From positions 62,001 to 126,000 of IMG/VR virus record IMGVR_UViG_3300009104_001210: 64,000 nt of DNA, one strand, 5' to 3'. The stretch comes from a virus. Shown piece by piece: positions 34,020-56,305 of this stretch. A model generated the notes under the pieces. It saw nothing but the letters and a program-made list of their open reading frames with translations. It was not told the DNA's origin and searched no databases. The position numbers were made by a program, and so were the translations under genes. Each line of letters begins with the position of its first letter. The first letter of the stretch is position 1.

Positions 34020-34316
34020 ATGAATAGATATGAAAATATAAGAGTGAAGATTAATAAACAAGGTAAAAGAGTTCGTGTATCAACTTTATATCCACAAATT
34101 CCTATATCCGATGAGGATAAATTTATATATCCAAAGTATGGTGAACGATTAGATTTAATTGCACATAGACAATACAAAGATTCTACTTTGTGGTGGGTTA
34201 TAGCAAAAGCAAATGGTTTAGGTAAAGGTAGAACAACTTTAAATCCAAATTTTCAAATAAGAATACCTGGTAATATAGAAAAAATAATTGCTGACTATAA
34301 TGCATTGAATAGGTAA
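34020..34316 (+). CDS. gp53: Baseplate wedge protein (gp53-like, LysM-type)
   Basis: 98 residues, compact version of T4 gp53 (196). Y-P-K-Y-G-E-R-L-D-L-I-A-H-R-Q-Y-K-D-S-T-L-W-W-V-I-A-K-A-N (about 39-67) is the LysM-like core shared by gp53-type wedge proteins, which clamp the wedge to the hub. It lies between two large baseplate genes with 3-9 nt gaps. Confidence 0.75.
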   Translation: MNRYENIRVKINKQGKRVRVSTLYPQIPISDEDKFIYPKYGERLDLIAHRQYKDSTLWWVIAKANGLGKGRTTLNPNFQIRIPGNIEKIIADYNALNR

Positions 34317-34319
34317 GTT

Positions 34320-37154
34320 ATGATTCAGTTAAAACCAATTGATTCAGAAGTTCAAAAAACTTTATTAGAAAAAATAAAAATGTCTGGTAAACAAGGTAAG
34401 GCTGTAACCGAACCATTATCAGGTGAAAAGTCTGATTATCTATCAGCAAGAACCGTTTGGGCAAGAATGATTGCACTTAGTACTTCTACAAATAATCCAA
34501 GAACACCAATAGTAATTTCAGCAGGAGAAGAATCTGTAGAACCAATAGAATCTACAACTGATCCTATAACTGGCGGAACTGCACAATTTTCTCCAATTAA
34601 AGGTAGAATTCGTGGAACTTTTGATGAAGTTTATGATAGAACAAATTTACATAGACCAATAGCTGGTTTAAAAAGTATATCTACAGGTATTGAAGGTGCA
34701 TATAAAGCAGTAAGAAAAGCTGATATAAGATGGATATGTTGGGATTTTGATACATTAGAAAGGTTGACACCATTCTTTTTATCACCTGGAGTATCAGTAG
34801 CATTAGAGTTTGGTTGGATGTGGCCAGGTCACATACCACAAGAATTTATTTATGATAATTGGGCTGAAATGGATGCAAGAAAAATAGGTTCTTTAAGTGA
34901 TGTTGTTAGAAAACAAGGTCAAGGACACCAAGATATGGTGTATGGAATTGTTAAAAACTTTTCGTGGACAGGAAGAGATGATGGTGGATTTGATTGTTCT
35001 ACTCAAATAATATCACCATCTATGAATGTTTTTAGTACACCATTGGGAGATTCAGAAAAAGCACCAACTTTTGAAATTCCAGAAGACTTAAAAAATCAAA
35101 TAAGAGGTAAAAGAGAATGGTATCGGTCACGTAAAGGTGAACAAGAAGTAATTTTAAGTGATGAAGACATGATGGCAAGACTTAAAGAAGTAGGGCTTGG
35201 GGGCGATGAAGACAATAGTTATATAGAAAATGTTCCACCAAGATTATTATTTGATAATTTTAAACAAATGTTATTAGATCTTAGGTATGGTGATCAAATG
35301 GAATCTTATATAAATACTATTATATGTTATAAAACTGATCTTAATGTTTCTAAACCACATATAGGACCATATGTTTCTTATGGTTGGTTTGAAGATAATA
35401 TTTTAAATACGTGTGTTGGAAAAGTTGTTGATGGAGATAAATTAAGTTATTCTGTACGATCAGTAGATTTTTTTACTGAAAAGGGTGATGGAGAAAAATG
35501 GTATAGAAGTACTACGATAAGTAATGATACAACAAGTCTTATTACTATAGATGCAGAAAAAGTTATTATTCCAGGACAGTTTCCATATTCAACAAATTTT
35601 GAGAAAGAACTTAATAGAATGGAAGGTAAAGATGAAGGTAAGGATCGTAAAGATAAAGACTACGAATTTGAAACTCATTGGAAACGAAAAGTATGGAAAA
35701 AAATAGAAGAAAAGGTAAGGGAACTACCAGCATTTGCAGTAAAAGCGGAAGGTGAAGAAAAAGATGAAGATACTTTCGAAAGTTTTTCAGAAAGAGGGAA
35801 AAAATTACTTAAAGCAACTAAAGGTGAGGATAAAGATGGAGATTTTAAATATGGTAAAGAAAAGGGATATTTAAGAAATTTACTTATTCACGCAGATTTA
35901 ATTAGTGAATCTATGAAAACTAGCAATACCTTTGAAGGTGGATTAAAAAATTTATTAGCTAATATAAGTGATGCTTGTGGTGGAATTTGGGATTTTGAGT
36001 TAGCAACTAGCGAAGACGGTAGTACGGTTAGGGTTATAGAAAAAGGTTCGCCAGAAAAACCTGTAAGAGCTTTACTTGATAATCAGAGTATAAATTTGGA
36101 AACAGGTAATGTTAAAGATAAATATAATAATAAAGGTTTAATGATATTTCCAACTTGGCAAACTAATTCTATAGTATTTAATCAAAATATGGTTACTAAA
36201 TTACCATCACAGATGGCAACAGTAGCAATGTATGGAAGAAATTTATCTGCTAAAGAAGCTTCGAATGAAGAAATGTCAGGAGATAAAGCAGCAAGGACTT
36301 TAGGAAAGTTATTTAATTCTAAATTAAATAATGTAGAAGATGTTATTAATAAAAATATTGAGAGAATTTTAGGAAATACTGAAATTAATAAGTTTGGATT
36401 AAATGAACTAAGTGGGTATCATGGTCTGACAAAAGAAATAGATGTGTCAGCCGAAAAAGGAATAGTAATAGATGCAGCAGAAATTATCAAACAATATACA
36501 GAAAAACAAATTATGGATATTTTAAATGATGGTATTGATTATGATAAAGAAAAAGACCCAACCGTTGAAGGAAAAAGAGAAAAAGACTCAACAGCATTAG
36601 ATTATACATTTTTATATGATAGAAATGGTAAAATAAGAAAACATTATAAAGATGCTTTATTACATTTTTTACATCAAAGCCCAGGTTCTATAAAACAAAC
36701 AGAAGATATTTTAACACCAATTGAGTTTGAAGTAACTATTGACGGTACAGGAGGAATTTTTCCAGGAGAGGCATTTTCAAGTACATATATTCCAAAAAGA
36801 TATAGAGATGCAACAGTTTTTCAAATTATGGATATAAATCACAGAGTAGATGGTAGTGGTTGGAAAACTACATTAAGAGGTTTAATGAGAATTGATTATG
36901 GTTTGGGGGAAAAAAAACCAATGAGTGAAATGCTTGAAGAAATATATGCAGATAAAAAGGGTGATTCAAAAGCACCACCATATTTATCATTTGCGGAATA
37001 TTTAACAGCTAATGTAGGAAAGATATCTAAATATAAGATAACTCCTGAAAAACAAAAAGAAATTGATGCATCAGAGCAGTCTGATCAACCTGAACCTTCC
37101 CCTGGCCTCAACAAAAATAACAGACCTATGGGCGGTGGTGGCAGGAACGTTTAA
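34320..37154 (+). CDS. Large baseplate hub/structural protein
   Basis: 944 residues. The N-terminal part contains R-P-I-A-G-L-K-S-I-S-T-G-I (about 112-124), R-K-A-D-I-R-W-I-C-W-D-F-D-T-L-E-R-L-T-P-F-F-L (about 131-153) and V-A-L-E-F-G-W-M-W-P-G (about 159-169), a pattern I associate with hub proteins of aquatic T4-like phages (gp27-type role). The middle (about 440-520) is a charged Lys/Glu linker, and the C-terminus (from about 800) is a compact beta domain. The tail after 915 is Pro/Asn/Gly-rich. No lysozyme motif is seen, unlike T4 gp5. Confidence 0.5.
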   Translation: MIQLKPIDSEVQKTLLEKIKMSGKQGKAVTEPLSGEKSDYLSARTVWARMIALSTSTNNPRTPIVISAGEESVEPIESTTDPITGGTAQFSPIKGRIRGTFDEVYDRTNLHRPIAGLKSISTGIEGAYKAVRKADIRWICWDFDTLERLTPFFLSPGVSVALEFGWMWPGHIPQEFIYDNWAEMDARKIGSLSDVVRKQGQGHQDMVYGIVKNFSWTGRDDGGFDCSTQIISPSMNVFSTPLGDSEKAPTFEIPEDLKNQIRGKREWYRSRKGEQEVILSDEDMMARLKEVGLGGDEDNSYIENVPPRLLFDNFKQMLLDLRYGDQMESYINTIICYKTDLNVSKPHIGPYVSYGWFEDNILNTCVGKVVDGDKLSYSVRSVDFFTEKGDGEKWYRSTTISNDTTSLITIDAEKVIIPGQFPYSTNFEKELNRMEGKDEGKDRKDKDYEFETHWKRKVWKKIEEKVRELPAFAVKAEGEEKDEDTFESFSERGKKLLKATKGEDKDGDFKYGKEKGYLRNLLIHADLISESMKTSNTFEGGLKNLLANISDACGGIWDFELATSEDGSTVRVIEKGSPEKPVRALLDNQSINLETGNVKDKYNNKGLMIFPTWQTNSIVFNQNMVTKLPSQMATVAMYGRNLSAKEASNEEMSGDKAARTLGKLFNSKLNNVEDVINKNIERILGNTEINKFGLNELSGYHGLTKEIDVSAEKGIVIDAAEIIKQYTEKQIMDILNDGIDYDKEKDPTVEGKREKDSTALDYTFLYDRNGKIRKHYKDALLHFLHQSPGSIKQTEDILTPIEFEVTIDGTGGIFPGEAFSSTYIPKRYRDATVFQIMDINHRVDGSGWKTTLRGLMRIDYGLGEKKPMSEMLEEIYADKKGDSKAPPYLSFAEYLTANVGKISKYKITPEKQKEIDASEQSDQPEPSPGLNKNNRPMGGGGRNV

Positions 37155-37708
37155 TGGCTATATTACAAAACGATAACAGAATAGAACAAATAGAATATTC
37201 AGCAGGAATTACTGATATACAAGAGTTTGTGTATGAAAATAATCCAGATATTGCAGTTCCAAGTGGTATAGAATTTCATAAAATAATAACTAAAAATAAA
37301 CAAATTGTATATCAAACTCTTTCTTCACCAGCAAAGCATTCAGAAATAATTATTAGAAAGAGAAACCTAACAGATTTTGAAGGTTACTTAGAAGCCACAG
37401 ATAATAATCCACCAACATCTTTTTATTTTCGAAATAAAAAAGTAGAACCAAAACCAGTTAATTATAAAAAAGGATTTTTTGATAGATTTTTTGTACAGTT
37501 AGCATCAGATACACACGCACCTATTTTGGAAATAGAAGGCAAAGATTTTAAAGTAGCAGACGCTACTTATGCCAAAGTTAAAATAAGGTGGTCTTTAAGT
37601 AGTAATCCAGAGGAGCAAGAAGAGTTAAATCGTAGAGCAGTAGATTTGGCAGAAGAAAAATTTCCACAAATTAGACATAAGATATATAATTTAATTGAAT
37701 TTGGGTAA
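37154..37708 (+). CDS. Hypothetical protein ending the tail operon
   Basis: 184 residues, mixed alpha/beta with no recognised motif; W-S-L-S-S-N-P-E-E-Q-E-E-L-N-R-R-A (about 146-162) looks like a conserved end helix. It overlaps the previous stop and is the last gene before a TATTTATG box, which suggests it belongs to the baseplate operon. Confidence 0.5.
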   Translation: MAILQNDNRIEQIEYSAGITDIQEFVYENNPDIAVPSGIEFHKIITKNKQIVYQTLSSPAKHSEIIIRKRNLTDFEGYLEATDNNPPTSFYFRNKKVEPKPVNYKKGFFDRFFVQLASDTHAPILEIEGKDFKVADATYAKVKIRWSLSSNPEEQEELNRRAVDLAEEKFPQIRHKIYNLIEFG

Positions 37709-37744: not shown

Positions 37745-39022
37745 TTGAAATTTATAGAAAATAGCATGGAATTCAATGCTTTCTTGCAAGACTATGAGGA
37801 AGCAAATCAAATCATAGCACTTCCCGTTCCCGTTGATTACAAAAAACATCCTGTAGAAACAAAATTATCTTTTGTTCTTTTTTTAATTGATGGAAAACCT
37901 TTCACACTTACATTTAATCATACAGATGCAAAAAATCTTCAGTTTGAAGATTTACGTATAATAAATAATAAAAACAAACCAATATACACTCTTGATAAAA
38001 AACAAGCATATCATCTTACACATTTAGATAATTTCATTGATGTAAATTTACTTAACTATTGGAATACAGGTGAGAAAACTAATTTAGATTTATATCTTAA
38101 TGATACAATTCGAGATTATCATATGAAATATTATGAGAAAGAAGATATAAACGCATCTATTCCTATAATGAAATTCACATATCATTTATATAAGATAGCA
38201 ATGGAAATGCAGGTTATTCTTTCAAAATATGACACTTCTGACATTTTGACATATAATGATGAAATGTTTGATAACTTTATACATATAGAAAAAAATGGTT
38301 TACAAACAACTGATGGTATGGTATATTCAGAGTATAATCCATTCACATCTACAGGTCGTCCATCAAATAGATTTGGTGGAGTTAATTTCGCAGCATTAAA
38401 TAAGAGTGATCGTAGTAGAGAAAAATTTATTAGTAGATTTGGTAGTGAGGGTAAATTGGTTGAGTTTGATTATGATGCATATCACTTGAGATTAATAGCA
38501 GATAAAGTAGAATATGAATTCCCCGAAGGTTCAGTACATGAGCATATGGCAAAATATTATAATTGTGATTATGAAGAATCAAAAAGGAGATCATTTCAGT
38601 ATCTTTATGGTGGAATACCGATAGAAGTGTGGCAACTAAATCCATTTTTTTCAAGTGTATATGACTATGTAAATAATCTTTGGAATATATATAAAGAAGA
38701 ACATTTTATCAAATCAGATATTTATAGTAGAGAAATAAAGGGAAGTAATTTTAACGCCAACAAATTGTTTAATTATTACATTCAATTATTGGAAACTGAA
38801 ACAAATGTGGTAGTTATAAAAAAGGTTAGACAATTAATGAATAAATATAAAAGTAAGTTTATATTGTACAGTTACGATTCATTTTTATTTGATATGCATA
38901 TAGAAGATGGATTACCATTTTTAAAAGAATTGAAAGATGTTTTGGAAAATAATAAGTTTCCAACAAAAGTTGCTTGGGGTAAAAACTATGATGACCTTGT
39001 AGATATTACGGAGAAATTTTAA
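37745..39022 (+). CDS. PolA-family-like polymerase palm protein
   Basis: 425 residues from a TTG with AAAGG upstream. It keeps the family A DNA polymerase motifs: S-T-G-R (T203-R205), motif A F-D-Y-D-A-Y-H-L-R-L (D242 as the metal ligand), motif B S-K-R-R-S-F-Q-Y-L-Y-G-G (K280, F284, Y288 in the K-x3-F-x3-Y spacing of Taq K663/F667/Y671), and motif C Y-S-Y-D-S-F-L-F (D378). Differences: Tyr where Taq has R659, H247 for steric-gate E615, and S379 for the second acid of motif C. There is no 5' nuclease domain and no recognisable 3' exonuclease. The N-terminal 200 residues are novel to me. The phage also encodes a complete family B polymerase. It may be an active, altered or structural relic. 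Confidence 0.75.
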   Translation: MKFIENSMEFNAFLQDYEEANQIIALPVPVDYKKHPVETKLSFVLFLIDGKPFTLTFNHTDAKNLQFEDLRIINNKNKPIYTLDKKQAYHLTHLDNFIDVNLLNYWNTGEKTNLDLYLNDTIRDYHMKYYEKEDINASIPIMKFTYHLYKIAMEMQVILSKYDTSDILTYNDEMFDNFIHIEKNGLQTTDGMVYSEYNPFTSTGRPSNRFGGVNFAALNKSDRSREKFISRFGSEGKLVEFDYDAYHLRLIADKVEYEFPEGSVHEHMAKYYNCDYEESKRRSFQYLYGGIPIEVWQLNPFFSSVYDYVNNLWNIYKEEHFIKSDIYSREIKGSNFNANKLFNYYIQLLETETNVVVIKKVRQLMNKYKSKFILYSYDSFLFDMHIEDGLPFLKELKDVLENNKFPTKVAWGKNYDDLVDITEKF

Positions 39023-41163
39023 TGTTTGAATGGAAAACTTTTTTCAACGATTTTGCAGAAGAGTACTATTCAGTACCATACTTAGATAAGAAAGAGCACA
39101 TATACGCTTTACAAAACTATCTTATAGCAAAAGGTATGTTAGTAGAGGATGTTGATTATGCCATTAAAACTCTTTTGGGTGAAGAAACACCTGTAAATTC
39201 TTGGAGTGATAGAAAAACACATAAAGAAGAAGAAAGAAAAAGAGTAGCCGAAGAGAAACCTAAGTACGCTAAGGCATCGGGTGGAAAATATTATGTGAAA
39301 AATAAAGAAACAGGAAATGTTTATTCAGTTGTTAAACCTAATCCCGAAAAACATGATCCAATTAGCAGAGAGAAAGCAGAAAAAGAAGTAGAGAAAGATG
39401 GTGGTGGAAAAGAAGATAAAGCTCAAAGTTTCGCCAGAGAAAAATTTAAAAAGGCTTTAGATCATCAAATGAGTACAATAGAATTTGAGCCAGAAAGTGA
39501 TAAAGAAGTTTTTCAAAAAGTTATTGATAAAGTAAGTAATCAAGATGCCAATTTTTCAGACGAGGAAAAGAAAATTGCTGGAAAATATATTGCTAAAAGT
39601 GATTCAGATAAAACAGCAAAACTTTATATTGCTAAAGTTGGTCCGCAAACTTTTGATGATAAAGCTAGACGTGGACAAGTTAATTATGCAAAAAGTAAGG
39701 CTGGAAGACAATATATAGATAAATTACAAAAAGTACTTAATCTTCCAACAACTGCTGCTCAAGCTAAGAAAACAGATGCGGGTAGAGTGGCTTCTAAAAT
39801 TAGAACAAAAGATATATCACCCACAGATATAAATAAAGAAATTGAAGTTGGTGTATCTAGAGTAAAGGATTCCAAAGGTAATATTACAGCAGTTAAGTTT
39901 GGTAATAAAGAACATAAATTAGCATCTGTACCTGATAAACAAAAATTAAAACAAACTTTTATGGATAAAGGTATGTCTGACGAACAGGCAGAACTTAGAG
40001 CTAAAAAAGTTAGACGTTCAATTAGAAAACACAATGAATATTTAGTAGATTTAACACAAACTCTTGATAAAGAGTCGGGTGAATTTGTACCTCGAAAAAA
40101 CTTTAAAGTAGCAAGTATGATAAAAGGTGCTGATCCATCAACTGAAGAGGGTAGACAGAAAATTCTTGAAGAATATCCTAAAAAAATACATCGTATTTTT
40201 AAAGACATTGTGGCAAAAAGTCCTGGTGGAATAACAGAAGATGAAAAAAGAGCTTTAAATACATTAAGAGATTTAAATTCTAATCTTTCAACTGAAGAGT
40301 ATGAGAAAGAATGTCTAAATGTTATACATACTATTTTAAGGACTCCTTCACTTGCTTCTGGTGGTGCAGATTTGGCTGAAAGTATAACAGGTTTGATACA
40401 AACTAAAAAAGGACATGAGATTTATTTTCCAAGTGATGTTACTTATAAAGTAGGTGATATGATTTCTTTGGGTGATTTAGGTGATTTAAATCCTACTGAT
40501 CCTGATTATTATAATAAAGTTGCTGACGCTGCATCTTCTATTATAGTAACAGTTGAAGCTGAAGGACCTGCTAGTGTTAAAGTGGGTGCAGGAGCAGCTA
40601 GTTCTGCTGAAGAAAAAGTAAGAATGACAGAGTATGAGAATCCAAAAACAAGGTCAGCGTTAAGTGGTTTAGTATCAACTCATAAGTTAATGTTTGATAA
40701 ACCTCAAGATTTAAATAAAGCAGATGAGAATATTCAGAAAGCAAGAGATCATGCTCTATCTATTGGTATTACACAAGAAGAGCTTGATAAGATAGATGAA
40801 AAGGCAAAAGCACAATCAGCAAAATGGAAAGAACTTTGGAAAGGAAGAGCAAAGAAAGGTACTGAAGATTGGTCAGATGAAGATTGGGATAAAATGGAAC
40901 AAACTTTGGTTAGATTTGCACAATCTCACTTATTAATTCAAGATATTAATAATAAGGATATGATATACCAAAAATTTACAAACTATAGGTATAATGATAA
41001 AGTAAGTGGAACAGAAGTGGATAGAACTGATGGTGTTAATTGTTTAGGATCTATTAAAGCTGCTATGAATATGGGATTTACTTGGAGTGAAGGTGGTGGA
41101 GTGAGACCGCAGAATACTTTTTCAAGTAGAATTGGTAATACCTGTAAGGATGTGAAAAAATAA
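39022..41163 (+). CDS. Large hypothetical protein co-operonic with PolA-like gene
   Basis: 713 residues starting inside the PolA-like stop (TAATG). N-terminus: a small helical domain ending in Y-L-D-K-K-E-H-I-Y-A-L-Q-N-Y-L-I-A-K-G (about 20-38), then a long Lys/Glu/Asp-rich region (about 75-330), and a globular C-terminus (about 500-713) with V-D-R-T-D-G-V-N-C-L-G (about 667-677). No membrane segment and no known catalytic motif. Overlapping translation suggests it works with the polymerase-like protein. I do not recognise the family. Confidence 0.5.
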   Translation: MFEWKTFFNDFAEEYYSVPYLDKKEHIYALQNYLIAKGMLVEDVDYAIKTLLGEETPVNSWSDRKTHKEEERKRVAEEKPKYAKASGGKYYVKNKETGNVYSVVKPNPEKHDPISREKAEKEVEKDGGGKEDKAQSFAREKFKKALDHQMSTIEFEPESDKEVFQKVIDKVSNQDANFSDEEKKIAGKYIAKSDSDKTAKLYIAKVGPQTFDDKARRGQVNYAKSKAGRQYIDKLQKVLNLPTTAAQAKKTDAGRVASKIRTKDISPTDINKEIEVGVSRVKDSKGNITAVKFGNKEHKLASVPDKQKLKQTFMDKGMSDEQAELRAKKVRRSIRKHNEYLVDLTQTLDKESGEFVPRKNFKVASMIKGADPSTEEGRQKILEEYPKKIHRIFKDIVAKSPGGITEDEKRALNTLRDLNSNLSTEEYEKECLNVIHTILRTPSLASGGADLAESITGLIQTKKGHEIYFPSDVTYKVGDMISLGDLGDLNPTDPDYYNKVADAASSIIVTVEAEGPASVKVGAGAASSAEEKVRMTEYENPKTRSALSGLVSTHKLMFDKPQDLNKADENIQKARDHALSIGITQEELDKIDEKAKAQSAKWKELWKGRAKKGTEDWSDEDWDKMEQTLVRFAQSHLLIQDINNKDMIYQKFTNYRYNDKVSGTEVDRTDGVNCLGSIKAAMNMGFTWSEGGGVRPQNTFSSRIGNTCKDVKK

Positions 41164-41164
41164 T

Positions 41165-41587
41165 ATGAAGACACAATTATTAGCAACATTTTGTAAAAGA
41201 AATAAACTATACGAAACTATAGATTTAATTATAGTGTGTAATGAAATCATTTTTGATAAGATATATGTATTTCAAAATGAAAATGATTATCATCAATTGA
41301 TTTGTACATATAATGTAGAAGCAACAGATGAATTTACAGATGGCACTATAGATACTATTTCTATACATAGAAAGAAACAATCCAATACATTGTACACTAT
41401 AAATGCACTTAATGAATTGGTTAAAGAATTGAACAACGGGGTTTTGAATAATAAATTTCCAGTTCCCTGGGAGAATTATAGAAATCGTTTGCTATTGACA
41501 AACGATGAAGGACTATATGAGATACCTACAAGGGTATATTCAATAATACATACTAAGTCTTGGGAATCCAAATTAGACGAAAAATAA
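41165..41587 (+). CDS. Hypothetical protein, third gene of PolA-like operon
   Basis: 140 residues, alpha/beta with no known motif; a segment I-S-I-H-R-K-K-Q-S-N-T-L-Y-T-I-N-A-L-N-E-L (about 74-94) looks like a conserved beta-turn-helix. It starts 1 nt after the preceding stop. A hairpin and a promoter-like region before gp32 follow it, so it ends this operon. Confidence 0.5.
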   Translation: MKTQLLATFCKRNKLYETIDLIIVCNEIIFDKIYVFQNENDYHQLICTYNVEATDEFTDGTIDTISIHRKKQSNTLYTINALNELVKELNNGVLNNKFPVPWENYRNRLLLTNDEGLYEIPTRVYSIIHTKSWESKLDEK

Positions 41588-41679: not shown

Positions 41680-42459
41680 ATGGATATTAGCGCAATCAAG
41701 AAGCGTCTTAATCAGCTTCAAACTACAAACACTCGTACATCAAATCTTTGGAAACCTCAACCAGGTACAACTCAGATTAGAATTGTTCCTTATAAACATA
41801 ATAAGGAAAATCCTTTTATTGAGTTATTTTTCCATTATGATTTGGGTAGAAAATCTTATCTTTCACCCGTTTCATTTGGTCGTCCAGACCCGATTGAAGA
41901 ATTCGCACAGAAACTAAAATCTTCTGGTAATAAAGAAGACTATCGTTTAGGTAGAAAAATTGAAGCAAAAATGAGAACTTTTGCTCCAGTTGTAGTTCGT
42001 GGTGAAGAAAATGAAGGTGTTAAGTATTGGGGCTTTGGAAAAACAGTTTATCAAGAACTGTTATCTATAATCGCAGATCCTGATTACGGAGATATCACAG
42101 ATCCAATGAATGGTCGTGATGTTTCTGTAGAATTCAAGACAGCAGAAGAGACAGGCGGTTCGTTTCCGAAAACGACTATTAGGGTTAAACCTAATCAGAC
42201 TCCAGTTACGGAAGATGCTGATGTTCTTGAACTAATGACTAACAACCAAACAGACATTCGTGAGATTTATAAGGAACAAACTTATGAAGAACTTACAGAA
42301 GTACTTAACGATTGGTTAAATCCTTCTGAAGACGAAACAGAAAAAAATGGTGTTAAGGCAGAGAGTTCGGATAAATCGGTAACACAATCTGTAGTTAAAG
42401 AAGATGTAAAATCTACAGAAGATGTGTCGGCAGCATTTGACGATCTATTTAATAAATAA
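41680..42459 (+). CDS. gp32: Single-stranded DNA-binding protein (gp32-like)
   Basis: 259 residues (T4 gp32 has 301). The core W-K-P-Q-P-G-T-T-Q-I-R-I-V-P-Y (about 24-38), S-Y-L-S-P-V-S-F-G-R-P-D-P-I-E (about 59-73) and Y-W-G-F-G-K-T-V-Y-Q-E-L (about 111-122) is the gp32 OB-fold. The C-terminal tail is acidic and ends A-A-F-D-D-L-F-N-K, the usual protein-interaction tail. It coats ssDNA for replication and recombination with UvsX, the next gene. The leader (41610-41679) holds ATATATTATTG and a GGAG site. Codon choice is relatively unbiased, fitting high expression. Confidence 0.92.
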   Translation: MDISAIKKRLNQLQTTNTRTSNLWKPQPGTTQIRIVPYKHNKENPFIELFFHYDLGRKSYLSPVSFGRPDPIEEFAQKLKSSGNKEDYRLGRKIEAKMRTFAPVVVRGEENEGVKYWGFGKTVYQELLSIIADPDYGDITDPMNGRDVSVEFKTAEETGGSFPKTTIRVKPNQTPVTEDADVLELMTNNQTDIREIYKEQTYEELTEVLNDWLNPSEDETEKNGVKAESSDKSVTQSVVKEDVKSTEDVSAAFDDLFNK

Positions 42460-42529: not shown

Positions 42530-43627
42530 ATGTCTACAAGAGACAAATTAGCAGGGGCTCTAGCTGAAAGTTTAAACAAAACATTCAAAGATACAAAAGT
42601 TGCATACTTTCTTGATGGTTCTGGCACAACACCTACAGATATAAAAGAATTTATTTCTACAGGTTCTACATTATTAGATTTAGCAATATCAAATAAAGCA
42701 AATGGTGGTATTGCAGTTGGTAGAATTACAGAACTTAATGGATTGGAATCAAGTGGTAAATCTTTGGTTGGTGCACATCTTTTAGCAGAGACTCAAAAAA
42801 AGGGTGGAGTAGCAGTTTATATTGATACAGAAACCTCAGTAAGCCAAGACTTTTTAAAAGTTATTGGTGTAGATGTAGGTACAATGTTATATCTACATTT
42901 AGAAACAGTTGAAGATATATTCGCAGCAGTAGAAGAGATTGTAGCAAAAGTTAGAGAGTCAGATAAAGATAGGTTAGTAACTATTCTTGTAGATTCACTT
43001 GCAGCTGCATCAACAAATGTAGAGATGGAAGCTGACTTTGATAAAGATGGTTGGGCTACAAGTAAAGCAATCATTATATCTAAAGCTATGAGAAAAATAA
43101 CACAAATGATTGGTAGACAGAGAGTAGCTCTTGTGTTTACAAATCAACTCAGACAAAAACTTGGTGTGATGTTCGGAGACCCCTGGACTACAAGTGGTGG
43201 TAAAGCATTACCATTTCACGCATCTACAAGAATTAGATTGAAGAACAAAGGTCAAATCAAAGATACTAAAAAGAATACAATTGGTATGACGATACTTGCA
43301 CAAGTTATTAAGAATCGTTTAGGTCCACCTTTGAGAAGTTGTGAGTTCCCTCTATATTTTGAGAGTGGAATTGATGATGTGGGTAGTTGGTTAAAAGTGA
43401 TGAAAGATCATAAGATAGTGAAACAGGCTGGTGCTTGGTATACTATAACTGACCATTTAGGTGAAGAACATAAATTTCAATCAAAAGAATTCGCACATAA
43501 GTTATCAGACCCAGACTTTAAATCATATGTATATGACCAAATTTGTGAAAAGGTAATATTAAAGTATGATATAAAAGATTTAGGTATTGATGATGTTATT
43601 GAGACAGATGAGGTGGTTGGTGAATAA
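42530..43627 (+). CDS. uvsX: Recombinase UvsX (RecA family)
   Basis: 365 residues (T4 UvsX 390). Walker A G-L-E-S-S-G-K-S (71-78), the acidic E-T-S strand (I-D-T-E-T, about 96-100), Walker B-type L-V-D-S-L-A-A (about 152-158) and the loop region F-T-N-Q-L-R (about 203-208) are present. It catalyses strand exchange for recombination-dependent replication and repair, with gp32 as partner. ACGGAG ribosome site; its stop overlaps the RNase H start. Confidence 0.95.
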   Translation: MSTRDKLAGALAESLNKTFKDTKVAYFLDGSGTTPTDIKEFISTGSTLLDLAISNKANGGIAVGRITELNGLESSGKSLVGAHLLAETQKKGGVAVYIDTETSVSQDFLKVIGVDVGTMLYLHLETVEDIFAAVEEIVAKVRESDKDRLVTILVDSLAAASTNVEMEADFDKDGWATSKAIIISKAMRKITQMIGRQRVALVFTNQLRQKLGVMFGDPWTTSGGKALPFHASTRIRLKNKGQIKDTKKNTIGMTILAQVIKNRLGPPLRSCEFPLYFESGIDDVGSWLKVMKDHKIVKQAGAWYTITDHLGEEHKFQSKEFAHKLSDPDFKSYVYDQICEKVILKYDIKDLGIDDVIETDEVVGE

Positions 43628-44691
43628 TGTCAAATGCCAAATATCTGTCTATATTTGAAGAGATAAAGAAAAAGGGGGGATCTGTAGATTTTGATAACCC
43701 CGACAAAAAAGTTTTAATAGTTGACGGCTTGAACACTTTCATTAGGGTGTTCAGCGTAATGCCAACTCTAAACGAAAACGGTGTTCATGTTGGTGGTATT
43801 GTTGGTTTTCTTAAAAGCATAGGATTTGCCATTAATATGTTTAATCCCACCCGTACTATCATTGTATTTGACGGTAAGGGTGGGAGTAACCGCCGTCGTA
43901 AATTATATTCCGATTATAAAAATAAACGTAGAACTTCTTACAGAGTCAATAGAGTAGAAAGTATTGGTGGAAATGTTGATGAAGAAAGAAAGAATATGTA
44001 TATGCAGCTTAGAAGAGTTGCAGACTATCTTGAACTATTACCATTAACCACTATATCCGTAGATGGTATCGAAGCAGATGATGCTATAGCATATATTGCA
44101 AAGAGTGTAATACCAAATGGTAAGAAAGTCATTATGTCAACCGACAAAGATTTCTTACAGTTAGTATCTGATGATATCAAGGTTTGGTCTCCTACAAAAA
44201 AGAAATTATATGACAAAGAAGCAGTTTTAGAAGAGTATGGATTGACGCCTGAAAACTTTATTCTTAATAAGATAATTGAAGGAGATAAATCAGATAATAT
44301 ACCTGGTGTAAATGGAGTAGCAAATAAAACTTTGATAAAAAATATACCAACTTTGGCTGAAGATAATACTAATTATAGAATAGATGAACTACTTAAATAT
44401 TCTCATGAAAATAAGGATAGTGGTGGTAGTTTTTTTATAAAAATATTACAAAGTAAAGATATACTTGAACGAAACTATAAGTTAATGCAATTAGAAAATG
44501 TTGAAATTAGTGCTTCAACTAAAACTAAATTGATTGATTTAATCAGAGGTCCTATCAGACGATTAGTTAAATATAAATTCGAATCCATGTTCATGGAAGA
44601 TAGATTATTTCAGAATTTACCAAATGTAAGTAGTTGGTTAGCTCAGAACTTTACTACTATGGATAAGTACGCGGAGAAAACCAATGGGTAG
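43627..44691 (+). CDS. rnh: RNase H / flap 5' nuclease (T4 Rnh-like)
   Basis: 354 residues (T4 Rnh 305). FEN-type acidic motifs: V-L-I-V-D-G-L-N-T-F (about 28-37), I-V-F-D-G-K-G-G (about 78-85), V-D-G-I-E-A-D-D-A-I-A (about 144-154), S-T-D-K-D-F-L-Q (about 167-174) and G-D-K-S-D-N-I-P-G-V (about 220-229, helix-hairpin-helix entry). It removes RNA primers from lagging strands. It overlaps UvsX by a base and the next small gene by 8 nt. Confidence 0.93.
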   Translation: MSNAKYLSIFEEIKKKGGSVDFDNPDKKVLIVDGLNTFIRVFSVMPTLNENGVHVGGIVGFLKSIGFAINMFNPTRTIIVFDGKGGSNRRRKLYSDYKNKRRTSYRVNRVESIGGNVDEERKNMYMQLRRVADYLELLPLTTISVDGIEADDAIAYIAKSVIPNGKKVIMSTDKDFLQLVSDDIKVWSPTKKKLYDKEAVLEEYGLTPENFILNKIIEGDKSDNIPGVNGVANKTLIKNIPTLAEDNTNYRIDELLKYSHENKDSGGSFFIKILQSKDILERNYKLMQLENVEISASTKTKLIDLIRGPIRRLVKYKFESMFMEDRLFQNLPNVSSWLAQNFTTMDKYAEKTNG

Positions 44692-44863
44692 AAAAAGAAA
44701 ATATTTTACTGCTAAAGAAAAGAAAGAAGCACAACGAAAATGGCAGATGGAACACTATGAGAGAAATAAAGAAGTTATTCTCAAGAAAATGAAAGAGAAA
44801 TATAGACTTAAAAAGGTTAATGCATTGAAATCAGAAAAAATGAAGACGATATATGGAGAGTAA
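44684..44863 (+). CDS. 59-residue basic helical protein between rnh and 41
   Basis: Short gene starting at ATG 44684 inside the end of rnh and ending inside the helicase start (11-nt overlap). Sequence pattern K-Y-F-T-A-K-E-K-K-E-A-Q-R-K-W-Q, then Y-E-R-N-K-E, a charged single helix type found in many phages. CGGAG lies 12 nt upstream. Tight double overlap argues for real translation. Function unknown; DNA or helicase interaction is possible. Confidence 0.65.
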   Translation: MGRKRKYFTAKEKKEAQRKWQMEHYERNKEVILKKMKEKYRLKKVNALKSEKMKTIYGE

Positions 44864-46229
44864 TACATTACATACGTATGGAAATGCCTTTCAATCAAAA
44901 ACTATTTCTGCATTTTTAACTGATAGTTTATTTTTACAAACTATTATAGAGATTGTTAAGCCAGAGTATTTTGAATCGGAAGCAAATAAATGGCTAGTTA
45001 CAGAAATACATAAATATTTTATTAATTATAAAACTTCACCTACATTAGAAGCATTGAAAATTGAAGTTAATAGTGTAGAGAATGAAGTTTTTCGTCTTAC
45101 TATAATAGAAGCACTTAAAGAAGCTTGGAAACACAAAGATTCTACAGATTTAAAATATGTTCAAGAAAAAACATTAGATTTTTGTAAGAATCAAGTTCTA
45201 AAATCTGCTATTATGGAATCTGTAAGTCTATTAGAAAACCAAAACTATGATGGTATTAAAACTGTTATAGATAGTGCTATGAAGGCAGGAACTGCTGTTG
45301 ATATAGGACATGAATATAATATAGGTATAGAAGAAAGATTAACTAAGTCTACAAGAACTACTATAAAAACGCCATGGGATGTGATAAATGATATAATGGA
45401 TGGTGGTCTTGGAGAAGGTGAGTTGGGGGTGGTTGTTGCGCCTGCAGGTATTGGTAAAACATGGTTATTGCAAAGTATTGCTGCAGGCGCAATTAAAAAA
45501 GGATTTACAGTAGTACATTATACTTTAGAATTAAATGAAAATTATGTTGGGTTGAGGTATGATACAGTTCTTAGTGGTATAACTACTCAAAATATAAAAT
45601 ATCATAAAGATGAAGTAAAGAAAATAATTGAAAGTGTCCCAGGTAAGATGGTTATTAAATATTATCCAACACGGGCAGCAACAGTTAATACAATTTCAGC
45701 ACATTTAAAACAATTAGAATTAAAAGATATAAAACCTGATTTAGTTATAGTAGATTATGCAGATATATTGAGAGATGTTAGTGGTATGAGAGAAGTTAGA
45801 CACCAATTAGGTAGTATTTATGAAGATTTAAGAGGGTTAGCGGGCGAGTTTGAAATTCCAGTGTGGACTGCATCTCAGGCTAATCGTTCAGCACTTGAAG
45901 AAGAAGTTATTGAAGCAACAAAAGTTGCTGAAGCATATAGTAAAGTTATGATTGCTGATTTTGTGTTAAGTATTAGTAGACAAGCACAAGATAAAATAAG
46001 TCATACTGCTAGGTGTCATATTATTAAGAATAGATTTGGTGTTGATGGTTTAACTTATCCAATGGGTATGAATACTAACATTGGTAAGATAGATATTTAT
46101 GAAAGCACGAGTAAACCAGGCAAAGAACAACAAGGTAAAATGGATAATAGAGAAGAGTTTAGAAGAAAATTGTTAGCTAGTAAGTATAACGACATGAAGG
46201 ATGAAAAAACTTCAGAAGGATTTGAATAA
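44853..46229 (+). CDS. gp41: Replicative DNA helicase (gp41-like, DnaB family)
   Basis: 458 residues (T4 gp41 475). N-terminal helical domain (1-150), then a RecA-like ATPase: Walker A A-P-A-G-I-G-K-T (196-203), H-Y-T-L-E-L-N-E (about 220-227), Walker B D-L-V-I-V-D-Y-A-D-I-L (about 294-304) and the W-T-A-S-Q-A-N-R motif (about 337-344). It unwinds DNA 5'-3' as a hexamer and works with a primase that is not in this window. Confidence 0.94.
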   Translation: MESNTLHTYGNAFQSKTISAFLTDSLFLQTIIEIVKPEYFESEANKWLVTEIHKYFINYKTSPTLEALKIEVNSVENEVFRLTIIEALKEAWKHKDSTDLKYVQEKTLDFCKNQVLKSAIMESVSLLENQNYDGIKTVIDSAMKAGTAVDIGHEYNIGIEERLTKSTRTTIKTPWDVINDIMDGGLGEGELGVVVAPAGIGKTWLLQSIAAGAIKKGFTVVHYTLELNENYVGLRYDTVLSGITTQNIKYHKDEVKKIIESVPGKMVIKYYPTRAATVNTISAHLKQLELKDIKPDLVIVDYADILRDVSGMREVRHQLGSIYEDLRGLAGEFEIPVWTASQANRSALEEEVIEATKVAEAYSKVMIADFVLSISRQAQDKISHTARCHIIKNRFGVDGLTYPMGMNTNIGKIDIYESTSKPGKEQQGKMDNREEFRRKLLASKYNDMKDEKTSEGFE

Positions 46230-48360: not shown

Positions 48361-50862
48361 ATATATCAAAATATCTTTTATCAGATAAGTAAAAGTAGAA
48401 TACATATTTGGGATGATAAAAAAGGATATGCAGTTTATCCATTTAAACCATATGCTTATATAAAAGACTCAAAAGGTACGTTTACTTCTTTATATGGTGA
48501 TAAGGTAAGAAGAATTGCTAAATCACAAATAGAAGAATATGATACTTCTTTTGAATCTGATGTGTTAGCAGAAACAAGGTTTTTAGTAGATAACTATACA
48601 GATTCAGATGATGTATCAGAGGGTCATAGAGTTATGTTTTTTGATATTGAAGTAGAGGTTACAGAAGGTTTCCCTTCAGTAGAAAAAGCTGACAATGCAA
48701 TTACTTCTATTGCTTTATATGATAAATTAACTAAAGAATATCATTGTTATGTACTTGACGCTGAAAATGCAGTTAATAGTGAAAATTTTGATAATGCTAC
48801 AGTAATAAAGTTTAAAGAAGAGAGAGATTTATTAAATAAATTTTATCAAAAATATCTTGAGATATCACCAACAATTATTAGTGGTTGGAATAGTGATAGA
48901 TTTGACATTCCTTATTTATATAATCGTTCTCGGAGGTTATTAGGTGAGGATGTTGCTAAATGTTTATCACCAATAGGTATTGTAGACTATAATAAACATA
49001 GAGGTGCTTATAAAATAGCAGGTGTATCTAGCTTAGATTATCTTGAACTATATAAAAAACTTACTTTTGGTGAAAGGTCTTCATATAGATTAGATGATAT
49101 TGGAAATTATGAAGTAGGTATAAAAAAAGTTTCATATGATGGTACATTGGATGATTTATATTATAATAATAGGAATAAGTTTGTAGAGTATAATATAAAT
49201 GACGTTGTTATTCTTGAAAAACTTGATGAGAAGTTAGATTTTATTGGTATTGCTAGAGCTATTTGTCATTTGGGTCATGTTCCATATGAAGATGTATATT
49301 ATTCATCACGATTTTTAGAAGGTGCTATTCTTGTATATCTTAAAAAACTTGATATTGTTGCGCCAGATAAGAAAAAAGTAAATAAAGAATTAATGAACAA
49401 TGGTGATAAGTTTTCAGGAGCATATGTACAAGAACCAATAAAAGGTAGACATGAGTGGATTTATGATTTAGATATTACTTCAATGTATCCATCAATTATT
49501 ATGACATTGAATATTTCTCCTGAAACAAAACTTGGAAGGTTAACAGGTTGGAATTCAGAAGAATTTGTTAAAGGAGTAGATAAAACATATACTATAGAAG
49601 ATGATTCAGGAAAAGAAAGTGCTAAACTAACTACAGCAGAGTTTAAGAACTTTTTAAAAAATAATAATGTATCTGTATCTACTAATGGTGTGTTATATAC
49701 ACAAGATAAAAGAGGGTTAATTCCAACTTTGTTGGAAAAATGGTTTGATGATAGAGTAGAATTTAGAAAATTAGCAAAGAAGTTCGCTGAAGAGGGTGAT
49801 AAAGAGAAATATGCATACTTTGATAGACGACAGTATATTCAAAAGGTTGTTCTAAATTCATTGTATGGTGTGTTGGGTTTACCTGTGTTTCGTTTTTATG
49901 ACTTAGATAATGCAGAAGCAACAACGACAACGGGTGTTGAGTTAATTAAATATACTAAGAAGATAGCTAATTATTATTATAATTCTGTTTTGGAAGATTC
50001 GGAAGATCATTGTATATACATTGATACAGATTCAGTTTTTTATTCTGCTGTTTCTATGATTCAAAAGAAATATCCACACATTAATATTAAAGATGAAAAT
50101 CTAATGATGGATAAGATTTTAGATATTGCCTCAGAGGTTCAAGAATATTTAAATAGTTCATATGATTTATTTGCTAAAAAGTTTCTTAATGTAGATAAAC
50201 ATAGATTTGAGATTAAGCAGGAATTGATTGCTAGAAGTGGGTTATTTGTTACAAAGAAAAGATATGGATTGAAAGTTGTTAATGATAATGGTGTTAAGAT
50301 AAATAAACTTCATGTAAAAGGTTTAGATATTGTTCGTTCAAGTTTTCCAATAGCTATGAAAGAATGTTTAACAAAAGTATTAGAAGATATATTAGCAAAT
50401 GTACCTCAGAATAAGATTAATGAGTTTATTCTTAATTTTAAGAAATCTATGAAGTTGAAAAACTATGATACTATTGCAATGCCAACTTCAGTTAAAAATG
50501 TTAAAAAATATGTTCAGAGGGGTGATGGTAGATTGTTAGCTAAAAAGGGTGCACCTGTTCATGTTAAATCAGCAATAAATTATAATAACTTTTTATTGTC
50601 AAGTAAACTTGAAGCAAAGTATCCTTTAATTGGAAACGGTGAAAAGATTAAGTGGACTTATCTAAAAGACAATCCATTTAAATTTGAGACTTTATGTTAT
50701 AAAGGACATGAGGATCCTCAACAAGTGTTAGATTATATAAAAGAGTATATTGATACCGATAAGATATATAAGCAAGCACTTAGTAAAAAAATAGTAATGT
50801 TATATGATGCATTAAAATGGGAAGAACCAAATGATGATTTTGGTTTTAATAAATTCTTTTAA
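48361..50862 (+). CDS. gp43: Family B DNA polymerase (gp43-like), probable ATA start
   Basis: 833 residues from ATA 48361 (T4 gp43 898). The first GTG (48562) would remove 67 residues that clearly belong to the family (Y-Q-N-I-F-Y-Q-I-S ... Y-P-F-K-P-Y-A-Y-I-K ... S-L-Y-G-D-K). AAGAGG (48348-48353) sits 7 nt before the ATA, in the position of the expected Met. Exonuclease motifs: F-F-D-I-E (about 93-97), S-G-W-N-S-D-R-F-D (about 174-182), Y-N-I-N-D (about 277-281). Polymerase motifs: D-I-T-S-M-Y-P-S (from D371), K-V-V-L-N-S-L-Y-G (about 495-503), Y-I-D-T-D-S (about 553-558). It copies the genome with gp45/44/62. Confidence 0.95.
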   Translation: MYQNIFYQISKSRIHIWDDKKGYAVYPFKPYAYIKDSKGTFTSLYGDKVRRIAKSQIEEYDTSFESDVLAETRFLVDNYTDSDDVSEGHRVMFFDIEVEVTEGFPSVEKADNAITSIALYDKLTKEYHCYVLDAENAVNSENFDNATVIKFKEERDLLNKFYQKYLEISPTIISGWNSDRFDIPYLYNRSRRLLGEDVAKCLSPIGIVDYNKHRGAYKIAGVSSLDYLELYKKLTFGERSSYRLDDIGNYEVGIKKVSYDGTLDDLYYNNRNKFVEYNINDVVILEKLDEKLDFIGIARAICHLGHVPYEDVYYSSRFLEGAILVYLKKLDIVAPDKKKVNKELMNNGDKFSGAYVQEPIKGRHEWIYDLDITSMYPSIIMTLNISPETKLGRLTGWNSEEFVKGVDKTYTIEDDSGKESAKLTTAEFKNFLKNNNVSVSTNGVLYTQDKRGLIPTLLEKWFDDRVEFRKLAKKFAEEGDKEKYAYFDRRQYIQKVVLNSLYGVLGLPVFRFYDLDNAEATTTTGVELIKYTKKIANYYYNSVLEDSEDHCIYIDTDSVFYSAVSMIQKKYPHINIKDENLMMDKILDIASEVQEYLNSSYDLFAKKFLNVDKHRFEIKQELIARSGLFVTKKRYGLKVVNDNGVKINKLHVKGLDIVRSSFPIAMKECLTKVLEDILANVPQNKINEFILNFKKSMKLKNYDTIAMPTSVKNVKKYVQRGDGRLLAKKGAPVHVKSAINYNNFLLSSKLEAKYPLIGNGEKIKWTYLKDNPFKFETLCYKGHEDPQQVLDYIKEYIDTDKIYKQALSKKIVMLYDALKWEEPNDDFGFNKFF

Positions 50863-50921: not shown

Positions 50922-51645
50922 ACAAACGTTGATGGGATTCATCAATAGGTTTTATTTAGGTGGGCAAACTCAATCAGCACCTGTAAAATCAACAAAAGAC
51001 ACACTTAGTTGTGCATTTATCAACTCAGCAAAAAGTTGTGTTGGTGATATTGTTTTAGCTAAGAATGGAATTGGTGATTATGAAATGGGGCTGTATGAGA
51101 TTCAAGACTTAATTAAACTAATTAGTGTATTGGATGGTGATATGGATGTTGATGTTAAAACTGTAGGTGAAGTAGCATCACAGTTAGTCCTTTCACAAAA
51201 AAATACTAAAGCAAGAATAAATTATGGTCTTGCTAGATTGGATGTAGTTCAGAAGAAACCAGATTTATCAAATGTTCCTGAGTTCACATTAGAACTTAAA
51301 CTTGATAAGAAGTTCATTAGCACATTTATTTCAGGTAAAAGTGCGTTAAGTGAAGTTGCAACATTTGCTGTATTAGCAGATGGTAAAGAAGCAAAGGTTG
51401 TAATAGGTTATAGTTCTACAACACAATCTAATAAAGTTACAATCCCTGTAGAATGTAGTAAAGTAGATAGTTTTGAAGAGGCTGTATTATTTGATGCAGA
51501 TACTTTCAAAGAGATATTACTTGCTAACAGAGATTGTGAATCTTCAACTCTTTACATTTCAGATAAAGGGTTAGCTAAAGTTAATTTCAAGGTAGATAAT
51601 TTCGATTCTACATACGTACTAGTTGCAAAAACAACAGTAGACTAA
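50914..51645 (+). CDS. gp45: Sliding clamp (gp45-like)
   Basis: 243 residues (T4 gp45 228). Beta-rich, with alternating hydrophobic strands and an acidic overall charge, typical of the trimeric ring that tethers the polymerase and, in T4, also activates late promoters. F-T-L-E-L-K-L-D-K-K-F-I (about 125-136) is a representative strand-helix. AAGGAG ribosome site 8 nt upstream of the start. Position after gene 43 and before the clamp loader supports the call. Confidence 0.85.
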   Translation: MDKQTLMGFINRFYLGGQTQSAPVKSTKDTLSCAFINSAKSCVGDIVLAKNGIGDYEMGLYEIQDLIKLISVLDGDMDVDVKTVGEVASQLVLSQKNTKARINYGLARLDVVQKKPDLSNVPEFTLELKLDKKFISTFISGKSALSEVATFAVLADGKEAKVVIGYSSTTQSNKVTIPVECSKVDSFEEAVLFDADTFKEILLANRDCESSTLYISDKGLAKVNFKVDNFDSTYVLVAKTTVD

Positions 51646-52397
51646 TGGAAAATACTGTAGATAAATCAAAAGTTTATCTACAAGAGATAGACAAAAAGAC
51701 TGCGAAGGAAATGATTGTAAAACATCATTATTCGCATAGAGGTTCTTCTTGTAGATACGCTATAGGAATATATTATAAGTCAGATAATCCTCATCCTTTT
51801 TTTAAGGATACGAGTGAGGAAAAACTCATTGGGTGTATGACTTATGGTTATCCTGTAGGAAGAACTGTATTGGGATCTATGTTTAATGAAAACGTTAAAT
51901 TAGAAACTAATAATATTTTGGAATTGACAAGATTATTTATACATGATGGTTATGGTAAAAATATTGAATCATATTGTATTTCTCAATCATTTAAATGGTT
52001 GAAAAAACATGATGAAAATGTTAAAACATTAATAAGTTATGCAGATCCTGATGTATTACATTTAGGTGGTATTTATAAAGCTACTAATTGGTTGTATCAG
52101 GGTGCAGGATTAAATTTAATGCCAAATTATTCAATATCTTTAACAAAGGATCCATATGAATGGATACATAGTAGAACTGTTTCATCAAGATTTGGTAGTC
52201 ATAATATAATAAAGTTAAAAGAAGCAATTGGACATACGTTTTGGAGAAGAAGAGAACCTGAAAAACATAGGTACATTTACTTTTTGGGTAGTAAAAAAGA
52301 GAATAAAAAGTTTATGAAGAATTTGAAGTATGAAACTAAACCGTATCCTACAAATGCAGAAGAGTATTTACCGCCAATAGAAGAACATAAAGTATGA
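51645..52397 (+). CDS. Mom-like DNA modification protein (GNAT-type) 1
   Basis: 250 residues. The pattern I-V-K-H-H-Y-S-H-R (about 24-32), I-G-C-M-T-Y-G-Y-P-V-G-R (about 62-73), I-L-E-L-T-R-L-F-I (about 90-98), I-S-Y-A-D-P (about 128-133) and G-I-Y-K-A-T-N-W (about 140-147) is that of Mu Mom relatives, which modify adenine in phage DNA (methylcarbamoylation) to resist restriction. It starts inside the gp45 stop. A second related gene lies at 55667. Substrate here is unknown. Confidence 0.7.
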   Translation: MENTVDKSKVYLQEIDKKTAKEMIVKHHYSHRGSSCRYAIGIYYKSDNPHPFFKDTSEEKLIGCMTYGYPVGRTVLGSMFNENVKLETNNILELTRLFIHDGYGKNIESYCISQSFKWLKKHDENVKTLISYADPDVLHLGGIYKATNWLYQGAGLNLMPNYSISLTKDPYEWIHSRTVSSRFGSHNIIKLKEAIGHTFWRRREPEKHRYIYFLGSKKENKKFMKNLKYETKPYPTNAEEYLPPIEEHKV

Positions 52398-55195: not shown

Positions 55196-55670
55196 GAGAA
55201 AAGGATTATTCGATCATATTAAGCACATAACATCTGTACAAAGTTCCAATTATTGGGATACTATTACAGATGAAGATAAGAAAACGTGGTCGAATTATAT
55301 GGTTCATAGATTTTTATCTATGAGAACAGATTTTTTAGATGTGGTGAACGAGATACAGATGTATAATTTATCACCAGAAATAATATATAAATTTTATTCT
55401 GATATTATTCCAAAGGGAAAATATTGGTTAAAATATATTAAAGGGAGAAAACAAATGGATTATCCAAGATGGTTGTTAGATGTTGTGGCAAAAGAGTTAG
55501 AGGTAAGTTTAAGAGAAGCTGTAGATGCAGTTGATATGTATATGTTAACTGAAGGTGGTCAAGTAGAACTTACTGAGTTGTTACAATCATATGGTGTAGA
55601 TCGCAAGAAGTTAAAAGAAGTGGGCTTGCAATCTGATACTTGGTTAAGTGAAATCAAAGAAGACGAATGA
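55170..55670 (+). CDS. gp62: Clamp loader small subunit (gp62-like)
   Basis: 166 residues (T4 gp62 187). The pattern Y-M-V-H-R-F-L-S-M (about 43-51), I-Y-K-F-Y-S-D-I-I-P-K-G-K-Y (about 72-85) fits gp62, whose family has (N/K)-x-F/Y and P-x-G-K-R-Y. GTG start inside the zinc gene, with GGAAGG upstream; a TTG two codons on is an alternative. It overlaps the second Mom-like gene by 4 nt. Confidence 0.8.
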   Translation: MELKKNLVKRKGLFDHIKHITSVQSSNYWDTITDEDKKTWSNYMVHRFLSMRTDFLDVVNEIQMYNLSPEIIYKFYSDIIPKGKYWLKYIKGRKQMDYPRWLLDVVAKELEVSLREAVDAVDMYMLTEGGQVELTELLQSYGVDRKKLKEVGLQSDTWLSEIKEDE

Positions 55671-56305
55671 GTTTAGACGGTTATACCGTAGATCAAGTAC
55701 CTAGAAAATCCATTCAATCCTTTATAGAAAAGTATCATTATAGTCATAGTTGTAATGGTATACAAGGTTTAGAATGTTTTGCTTTGTTTAGACCAGGTAA
55801 ATTTAATATACCTGAAATGGTAGGTGCTATGATGTATGCTATACCATCAATGCCAAATACGGCTAAGAAGTATAATCCTATAAATCCCGATAGATGTGTA
55901 GAATTGAGAAGATTAGTTAACGTAGATGAGGCTCCCCCGAATAGTGAAAGTTTTTTTGTAGGAAAAACTATTAAATGGTTAAGACAAAATACAAATTATG
56001 AAGTTATAGTTTCCTTTGCAGATTTACACTATGGACATTCAGGAGTTATTTATAGAGCTAGTAATTTTGAATATGTCGGACAAACATCTCCAGGTAGAGT
56101 TTTAATGGTAGATGGTAAGGAATATCATAGTAGGTCTTTAAGTCAACCGATTAAACCATACAGTAGAGAAATTAGACGTAGGTGGGAAGCTAAAGATCCT
56201 AATATATTTTTTGTAAACAGAAAGTGTAAAAATATTTATGTTTATTATTTGAACAAAGGTATTAAGAAGAAGATAAAAAGAATAGAAGCTAATGAAAAGA
56301 ATTAG
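55667..56305 (+). CDS. Mom-like DNA modification protein (GNAT-type) 2
   Basis: 212 residues, shorter relative of the gene at 51645: I-E-K-Y-H-Y-S-H-S (about 19-27), M-V-G-A-M-M-Y-A (about 51-58), C-V-E-L-R-R-L-V-N (about 81-89), S-E-S-F-F-V-G-K-T-I-K-W-L (about 98-110), V-S-F-A-D-L-H-Y-G-H-S-G-V-I-Y-R-A-S-N-F (about 120-139). The two share spacing and motif order but diverge widely, so they may act on different substrates or as partners. The C-terminus is very basic. Overlaps gp62 by 4 nt and the nuclease by 14 nt. Confidence 0.7.
   Translation: MSLDGYTVDQVPRKSIQSFIEKYHYSHSCNGIQGLECFALFRPGKFNIPEMVGAMMYAIPSMPNTAKKYNPINPDRCVELRRLVNVDEAPPNSESFFVGKTIKWLRQNTNYEVIVSFADLHYGHSGVIYRASNFEYVGQTSPGRVLMVDGKEYHSRSLSQPIKPYSREIRRRWEAKDPNIFFVNRKCKNIYVYYLNKGIKKKIKRIEANEKN

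Follow-up and report, generated by a model that had tools for sequence, protein, structure and literature searches.

A divPolA1-type family A polymerase homologue, with a predicted thumb deletion and an inactive exonuclease-type domain, in a phage whose replicase is of family B

A 64,000-nucleotide stretch of an IMG/VR virus record (IMGVR_UViG_3300009104_001210, positions 62,001 to 126,000; hereafter the window) encodes a 425-residue protein that almost certainly belongs to divPolA1, a group of divergent family A polymerases, in a phage whose regular polymerase is a family B enzyme (Table 1). Our main explanation is that the protein is an active, non-proofreading, and probably distributive polymerase that would synthesize short patches in recombination-dependent replication and repair. 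We give this explanation as a whole a probability of about 0.55, and this weight, like those behind the wording chosen for its rivals, is a judgement and not a computed value.

The divPolA1 group was named by Yutin et al. (2024, Virol J 21:200; PMC11348598; preprint PMC11188092), who described it from 14 phages, Flavobacterium phage immuto included. Its members were reported to retain the main catalytic residues in the palm, to have a shortened thumb and an inactivated 3'-5' exonuclease domain, to be encoded beside a regular DNA polymerase of family A, B, or C, and to have replication genes downstream in a conserved arrangement; the same authors held that divPolA1 most likely retains polymerase activity and inferred a role in replication (PMC11348598). 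Since every one of these described features was found in the window protein, we regard it as a member of this known family. An earlier sequence-only reading of the window had correctly recognized that this phage, with its family B replicase, encodes a further, divergent protein of the PolA type, but had known of no described system of this kind; the system is divPolA1, and the immuto homologue is among its founding members (PMC11348598). In the literature searched, we found no use of the name beyond Yutin et al. 2024. New here are the size of the family, a 127-member census of the active site, the gene order in 107 loci, and a co-conserved protein that we call z.

Table 1. Features of the window, numbered from its first letter, with examples from relatives in the last row. 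Fractions count loci of divPolA1 relatives.
Feature	Position	Strand	Evidence or remark
Exact TATTTATA sites	4678, 8668, 13245, 16689, 24265, 24681	+	
Major capsid protein	6913-8565		
Baseplate wedge-like protein	34020..34316	+	PHROG 7145, E 1e-8; upstream in 70/71 loci that reach
Large baseplate hub-like protein	34320..37154	+	Named from position only; upstream in 81/81 loci that reach
184-aa protein, no assigned function	37154..37708	+	Directly upstream of divPolA1; 87/102 loci that reach
divPolA1-type family A polymerase	37745..39022	+	TTG start, 425 aa; homology, model, alignment
Putative degenerate 3'-5' exonuclease-type domain	37745..38287 (residues ~1-181)	+	Acids replaced; global hhalign to Klenow, model
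Junction, thumb missing	38288..38350 (residues 182-202)	+	~20 residues vs ~122
Palm and fingers	38351..39019 (residues 203-425)	+	TGR R205; motif A D242/H247; motif B Y276/K280/F284/Y288; motif C Y377-D378-S379
713-aa ORF	39022..41163	+	ATG overlaps divPolA1 stop; body variable among relatives
z, 140-aa protein	41165..41587	+	Co-conserved with divPolA1; 89/89 loci that reach
gp32-like single-stranded DNA binding protein	41680..42459	+	Pfam gp32, 57 bits; 66/70 loci
UvsX/RecA recombinase	42530..43627	+	Pfam RecA, 184 bits; 60/63 loci
Separate 5'-3' exonuclease/FEN	43627..44691	+	Pfam 5_3_exonuc_N, 113 bits; 55/59 loci
DnaB-type replicative helicase	44853..46229	+	Pfam DnaB_C, 66 bits; 46/59 loci, flanks short here
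Regular family B DNA polymerase (exonuclease and polymerase domains)	48562..50862	+	Pfam DNA_pol_B, 122 bits; DNA_pol_B_exo1, 78 bits; PHROG 262, 613 bits
Mom-like DNA modification genes (two)	51645-52397 and 55667-56305		PHROG 1384, E 1e-45 and 1e-50
Downstream-gene examples in relatives	L013:9032-9940, L015:7221-8162, L021		N terminus of EWxYR or MIKLKDLLxE type

The TTG start of the open reading frame is supported by its relatives, which align from this codon and share a conserved, MxIIE-type N terminus. Searched alone, the window protein had no match to Pfam DNA_pol_A, its best profile match was PHROG 2573 ("DNA polymerase", E 6e-4), and phmmer against the PDB returned nothing relevant. 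A tblastn search matched 6 of 50,697 phage records, namely those of immuto (four records), Microcystis phage Mel-JY01, and the metagenomic phage LR756508 (484 kb). The immuto homologue, annotated as "DNA polymerase family A" in its four records, scores 42.7 bits against DNA_pol_A (cut-off 34.3), the LR756508 homologue matches PHROG 17 ("DNA polymerase", E 2e-10), and DNA_pol_A is matched by 22 of 59 relatives. By way of these homologues, the relation to family A is firm. The immuto divPolA1 itself (gp001, YP_010114413) is 28% identical to the window protein over 85% of the query (tblastn E 1e-39), and the columns that are invariant in the family are so in both.

Comparison of profiles by hhalign with E. 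coli PolA and the regular PolA of immuto gave a local alignment (E 1e-5) over residues 190-415 that brings motifs A, B, and C into register, and a forced global alignment to the Klenow fragment (E 6e-11) kept the same register. The AlphaFold2 model of the window protein (mean pLDDT 94, pTM 0.90) found the Klenow fragment and other Pol I structures as its best Foldseek matches in the PDB (E 2e-16, TM 0.73-0.75 by query length); as regards a PolA-type RNA polymerase such as T7 RNAP, the top structural matches were DNA polymerases. Every landmark noted in the sequence-only reading was found at its proper place along the protein (T203-G-R205; D242 in motif A; K280/F284/Y288-G289 in motif B; D378 in motif C). 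Taken together, the alignments and the model indicate that the window protein is a family A polymerase homologue and that its motifs are not chance matches.

The model covers both domains of the Klenow fragment. Palm and fingers make up ~54% of the query, and at a TM of 0.73-0.75 much of the N-terminal domain should therefore superpose as well, as a 3'-5' exonuclease-type fold. In the global alignment, the motif I acids of this fold (D355 and E357 in E. coli) fall opposite P27 and P29; motifs II and III were placed by visual inspection only and otherwise rest on the analysis of Yutin et al. 2024. From the conserved E182 to T203 of the TGR motif there are 20 to 38 residues among members, as compared to ~122 in E. 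coli Pol I. As judged from alignment and model, the thumb of the window protein is truncated or missing, and its 3'-5' exonuclease domain is kept as a fold but inactive. The protein had been described as lacking its nuclease domains, which holds for the 5' nuclease, found as a separate gene, but not for the 3'-5' exonuclease fold, which is present without its acids; the part that is absent, overlooked at the time, is the thumb. The window protein thus shares with the Klenow fragment an exonuclease-type domain, palm, and fingers, in which motifs A, B, and C line up, and differs from it in the missing thumb and the replaced exonuclease acids.

Active-site residues were counted in 127 distinct full-length members. 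D242, H247, F284, Y288-G289, Q347, Y377-D378, and D383 are invariant, and both metal-binding aspartates (D242 and D378) are accordingly kept in 127/127; K280 is present in 126, the remaining sequence having an X. Residue 379 is Ser in 113 members and Ala in 14; at position 276, 106 members have Tyr and 20 keep Arg. In terms of the characterized enzymes, the steric-gate Glu (Taq E615, E. coli E710) is replaced by His247 in all 127 members, the site of Taq R659 (E. coli R754) is Tyr276 in the window protein, and that of Taq E786 (E. coli E883) is Ser379, so that motif C throughout the family reads Tyr-Asp-Ser/Ala against the canonical His-Asp-Glu (H881-D882-E883). The sequence-only reading had reported all three replacements, and each is found in the window protein, although the loss of the Arg is not family-wide. 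Eleven close pairs of divPolA1 gave dN/dS of ~0.03-0.11, which indicates purifying selection.

The PolA of Thermus phage Tt72 is informative on these replacements. It carries a natural Ser at the E883 site, is fully active, and keeps 76% of its activity as S616A (PMC9324360); loss of E883 is therefore no bar to activity. In the same enzyme, E389A, at the E710 site, keeps 35% activity and mutation of either catalytic Asp leaves 4% (PMC9324360). Unlike divPolA1, Tt72 PolA is proofreading-competent and retains the Glu that corresponds to E710. The change of the steric-gate Glu to His and, usually, of the triphosphate-binding Arg to Tyr counts against our main explanation, and we know of no tested family A enzyme with both changes. 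Arguing for activity are the metal-binding Asp pair, the O-helix K/F/Y-G, and Q347, which are kept in essentially all 127 members, and on this basis we predict that divPolA1 probably has DNA polymerase activity.

Other family A enzymes were also compared. A canonical replicase of the Pol I or T7 type does not fit the window protein, which lacks the thumb and has H247 for Glu and Y377-D378-S379 for H-D-E. The regular PolA of immuto (gp199, 777 aa; Pfam DNA_pol_A 193 bits) is a family A polymerase encoded in the same genome as a divPolA1, but it keeps the exonuclease acids, E710, R754, H881, and D882. A second group, divPolA2 (AUR84708, from barbaviruses and others), is likewise a divergent, additional PolA that lacks a normal thumb, but has a different N-terminal domain and a variable gene neighborhood (PMC11348598). 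Identity with divPolA2 was rejected, as hhalign detected no sequence relation to AUR84708 (probability 0.1%).

The gene context of divPolA1 is well conserved. The order is baseplate wedge, hub, divPolA1, z, gp32, UvsX/RecA, FEN, and DnaB, and from hub to DnaB it has 0 exceptions in the 107 loci that hold at least four of these genes. All of the fixed downstream neighbors of known function are replication or recombination proteins. It is true, as the sequence-only reading had it, that the gene lies behind baseplate genes, but the same block runs on into gp32, UvsX/RecA, FEN, and DnaB. The genes between divPolA1 and z vary among relatives. These variable genes and the baseplate genes upstream weigh against our main explanation, and co-transcription of divPolA1 with the replication genes would be conjectural.

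A regular polymerase was found in 9/9 records searched whole, PolB in eight and canonical PolA in immuto, and divPolA1 is thus retained beside either. The immuto system resembles the one described here in its kept palm, truncated thumb, dead exonuclease, regular polymerase, and downstream replication genes; it differs in having PolA where the window has PolB, and divPolA1 beside PolB has also been reported (PMC11348598). The described divPolA1 phages have genomes of 155-190 kb, as compared to the 216-kb record here.

In family A enzymes the thumb grips duplex DNA and the exonuclease proofreads. An enzyme with neither would therefore be expected to carry out distributive, unedited synthesis, suited to short patches. 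In the mechanism that we propose, divPolA1, a Klenow-type enzyme that retains the palm, the fingers, and an inactive exonuclease-type domain but has lost the thumb, would add dNTPs to a primer by two-metal nucleotidyl transfer. Together with gp32, UvsX/RecA, and FEN, it would fill gaps or extend the 3' ends of D-loops in the setting of recombination-dependent replication, repair, or Okazaki-fragment processing, and copying of the genome would be left to PolB, or to a different regular polymerase in some relatives. We consider gap filling or D-loop extension the most economical role because gp32, UvsX/RecA, and FEN are fixed neighbors, and we give a role in gap filling or recombination roughly even odds.

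The gene order by itself cannot separate gap filling from lesion bypass, in which an open, thumbless, non-proofreading site would allow synthesis across damaged or modified bases of the template at which PolB comes to a halt. The missing thumb and the lack of an active proofreading site are in keeping with such a polymerase, as are the adjoining recombination and repair genes. Several carrier phages modify their DNA: immuto carries a 7-deazaguanine pathway and DpdA, and the two Mom-like genes in the window suggest that this phage's DNA is modified too. However, insertion loops of the lesion-bypass kind were not identified in divPolA1, and we consider this role unlikely.

A further alternative is an altered substrate, in which the steric-gate His would permit the use of rNTPs or untemplated addition, making the protein a primer maker or an end-tailing enzyme. 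In E. coli Pol I, E710 excludes rNTPs (PMC9324360), the residue at this site is His in 127/127 members, and PolA-type RNA polymerases are known in T7-like phages (PMC11348598). His, however, is bulky enough that the gate may still function. In T7-type RNA polymerases the site is occupied by Gly, which we count against this alternative. DnaG-type primases, moreover, coexist with divPolA1 in 4/9 records searched whole, where a primer-making role is not required. Such a substrate change seems to us quite unlikely, and replacement of the primase was rejected as a general role of divPolA1. As for the 216-kb record that holds the window, it has a DnaB helicase, PolB, and a clamp loader, and searches of it for DnaG_N, Toprim_2, and PHROG 47 gave no match to a primase; this record, classed as linear, could lack part of the genome, or its primase could be of an unusual kind.

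The sequence-only reading had also raised a non-catalytic virion or DNA-binding protein. The rival considered here is a protein that is catalytically dead, binds DNA or serves in the virion or in packaging, borrows the polymerase fold, and is expressed late. The replaced active-site residues and the baseplate genes upstream would suit such a protein, as would a partial late-type box and, in some relatives, a downstream neighbor with a capsid-targeting-like N terminus. For a packaging or virion role, the baseplate neighbors are the sole positive evidence, to be set against the replication and recombination genes downstream. Neither an invariant catalytic Asp pair nor a dNTP-binding K/F/Y would be expected to persist in a dead protein, and the low dN/dS likewise disfavors a non-catalytic role. 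A capsid-targeting peptide on divPolA1 itself (MxIIE) was rejected, as these residues form the first strand of the exonuclease fold. The box (TATTTATG, 27 nt upstream of divPolA1) is indeed a 7/8 match to the late-type box TATTTATA, but it is unspecific: of the 56 gene starts in the window, 15 match at 7/8 or better, those of RNR and PolB among them, and the box therefore says little about divPolA1. A search of the literature for virion proteomics of immuto found no paper. Overall, a dead protein appears improbable. Lastly, a decaying remnant of an old PolA replicase swapped for PolB would agree with documented polymerase swapping in phages and with the loss of thumb and exonuclease activity, but it is largely refuted already, and is very improbable, given purifying selection, an invariant active site, hundreds of members, and retention in immuto despite the complete canonical PolA of that phage.

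Our main explanation leaves room for z as a partner of divPolA1. Of 50,697 phage records, a search for z matched precisely the six that were matched by divPolA1; the baseplate wedge gene matched these six and three others, and gp32 matched 98, and shared phage descent explains part of the co-occurrence. The protein has invariant residues, e.g., H68-R69-K70, N74, and W102, and an AlphaFold model (pLDDT 91) with no match to PDB folds at E 0.001. From this conservation, z may be a partner of divPolA1, and as a fixed neighbor it is a concrete protein to seek in that capacity. In an improbable elaboration, the two would form a two-part enzyme in which z supplies the grip on DNA and the steric-gate His leads to an unusual nucleotide choice or product, used at recombination intermediates. 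In 88/144 loci, the adjacent downstream gene begins no more than 10 nt from the divPolA1 stop. In many relatives its product begins with an EWxYR-type or MIKLKDLLxE-type N terminus, followed by a variable body, and we take the latter type to resemble T4 capsid-targeting peptides.

Relatives of divPolA1 were found in at least 513 IMG/VR stretches, a count of stretches in contigs and not of species; a more divergent query found 587, a set that overlaps the first. Plasmids gave no match, and among 84,980 bacterial and archaeal genomes only two MAG contigs, probably misbinned phage, carried divPolA1. A host or plasmid origin was rejected on these results, and the family is essentially viral. Described from 14 genomes, divPolA1 is thus common in phages of environmental metagenomes and tied to one recombination block. 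As a family A polymerase with a kept metal site and no thumb, it offers a natural test of the role of the thumb, and the need for a second, patch-making polymerase beside a full replicase is a question open to test in cultured immuto.

Two minor observations concern other parts of the window. Its major capsid protein shares 50-57% identity with the capsid proteins of immuto, Mel-JY01, and LR756508 and 37% with that of Rhodothermus phage RM378; this distant capsid relative gave no match to divPolA1, and two separate genes encode its split family B polymerase. The exact T4 late box, TATAAATA, occurs 26 times against 15.8 expected, a mild enrichment. Its reverse complement, TATTTATA, stands as an 8/8 match on the + strand ahead of six genes, at distances of 14-59 nt; all six belong to the structural half, and the sequence is perhaps a late promoter element.
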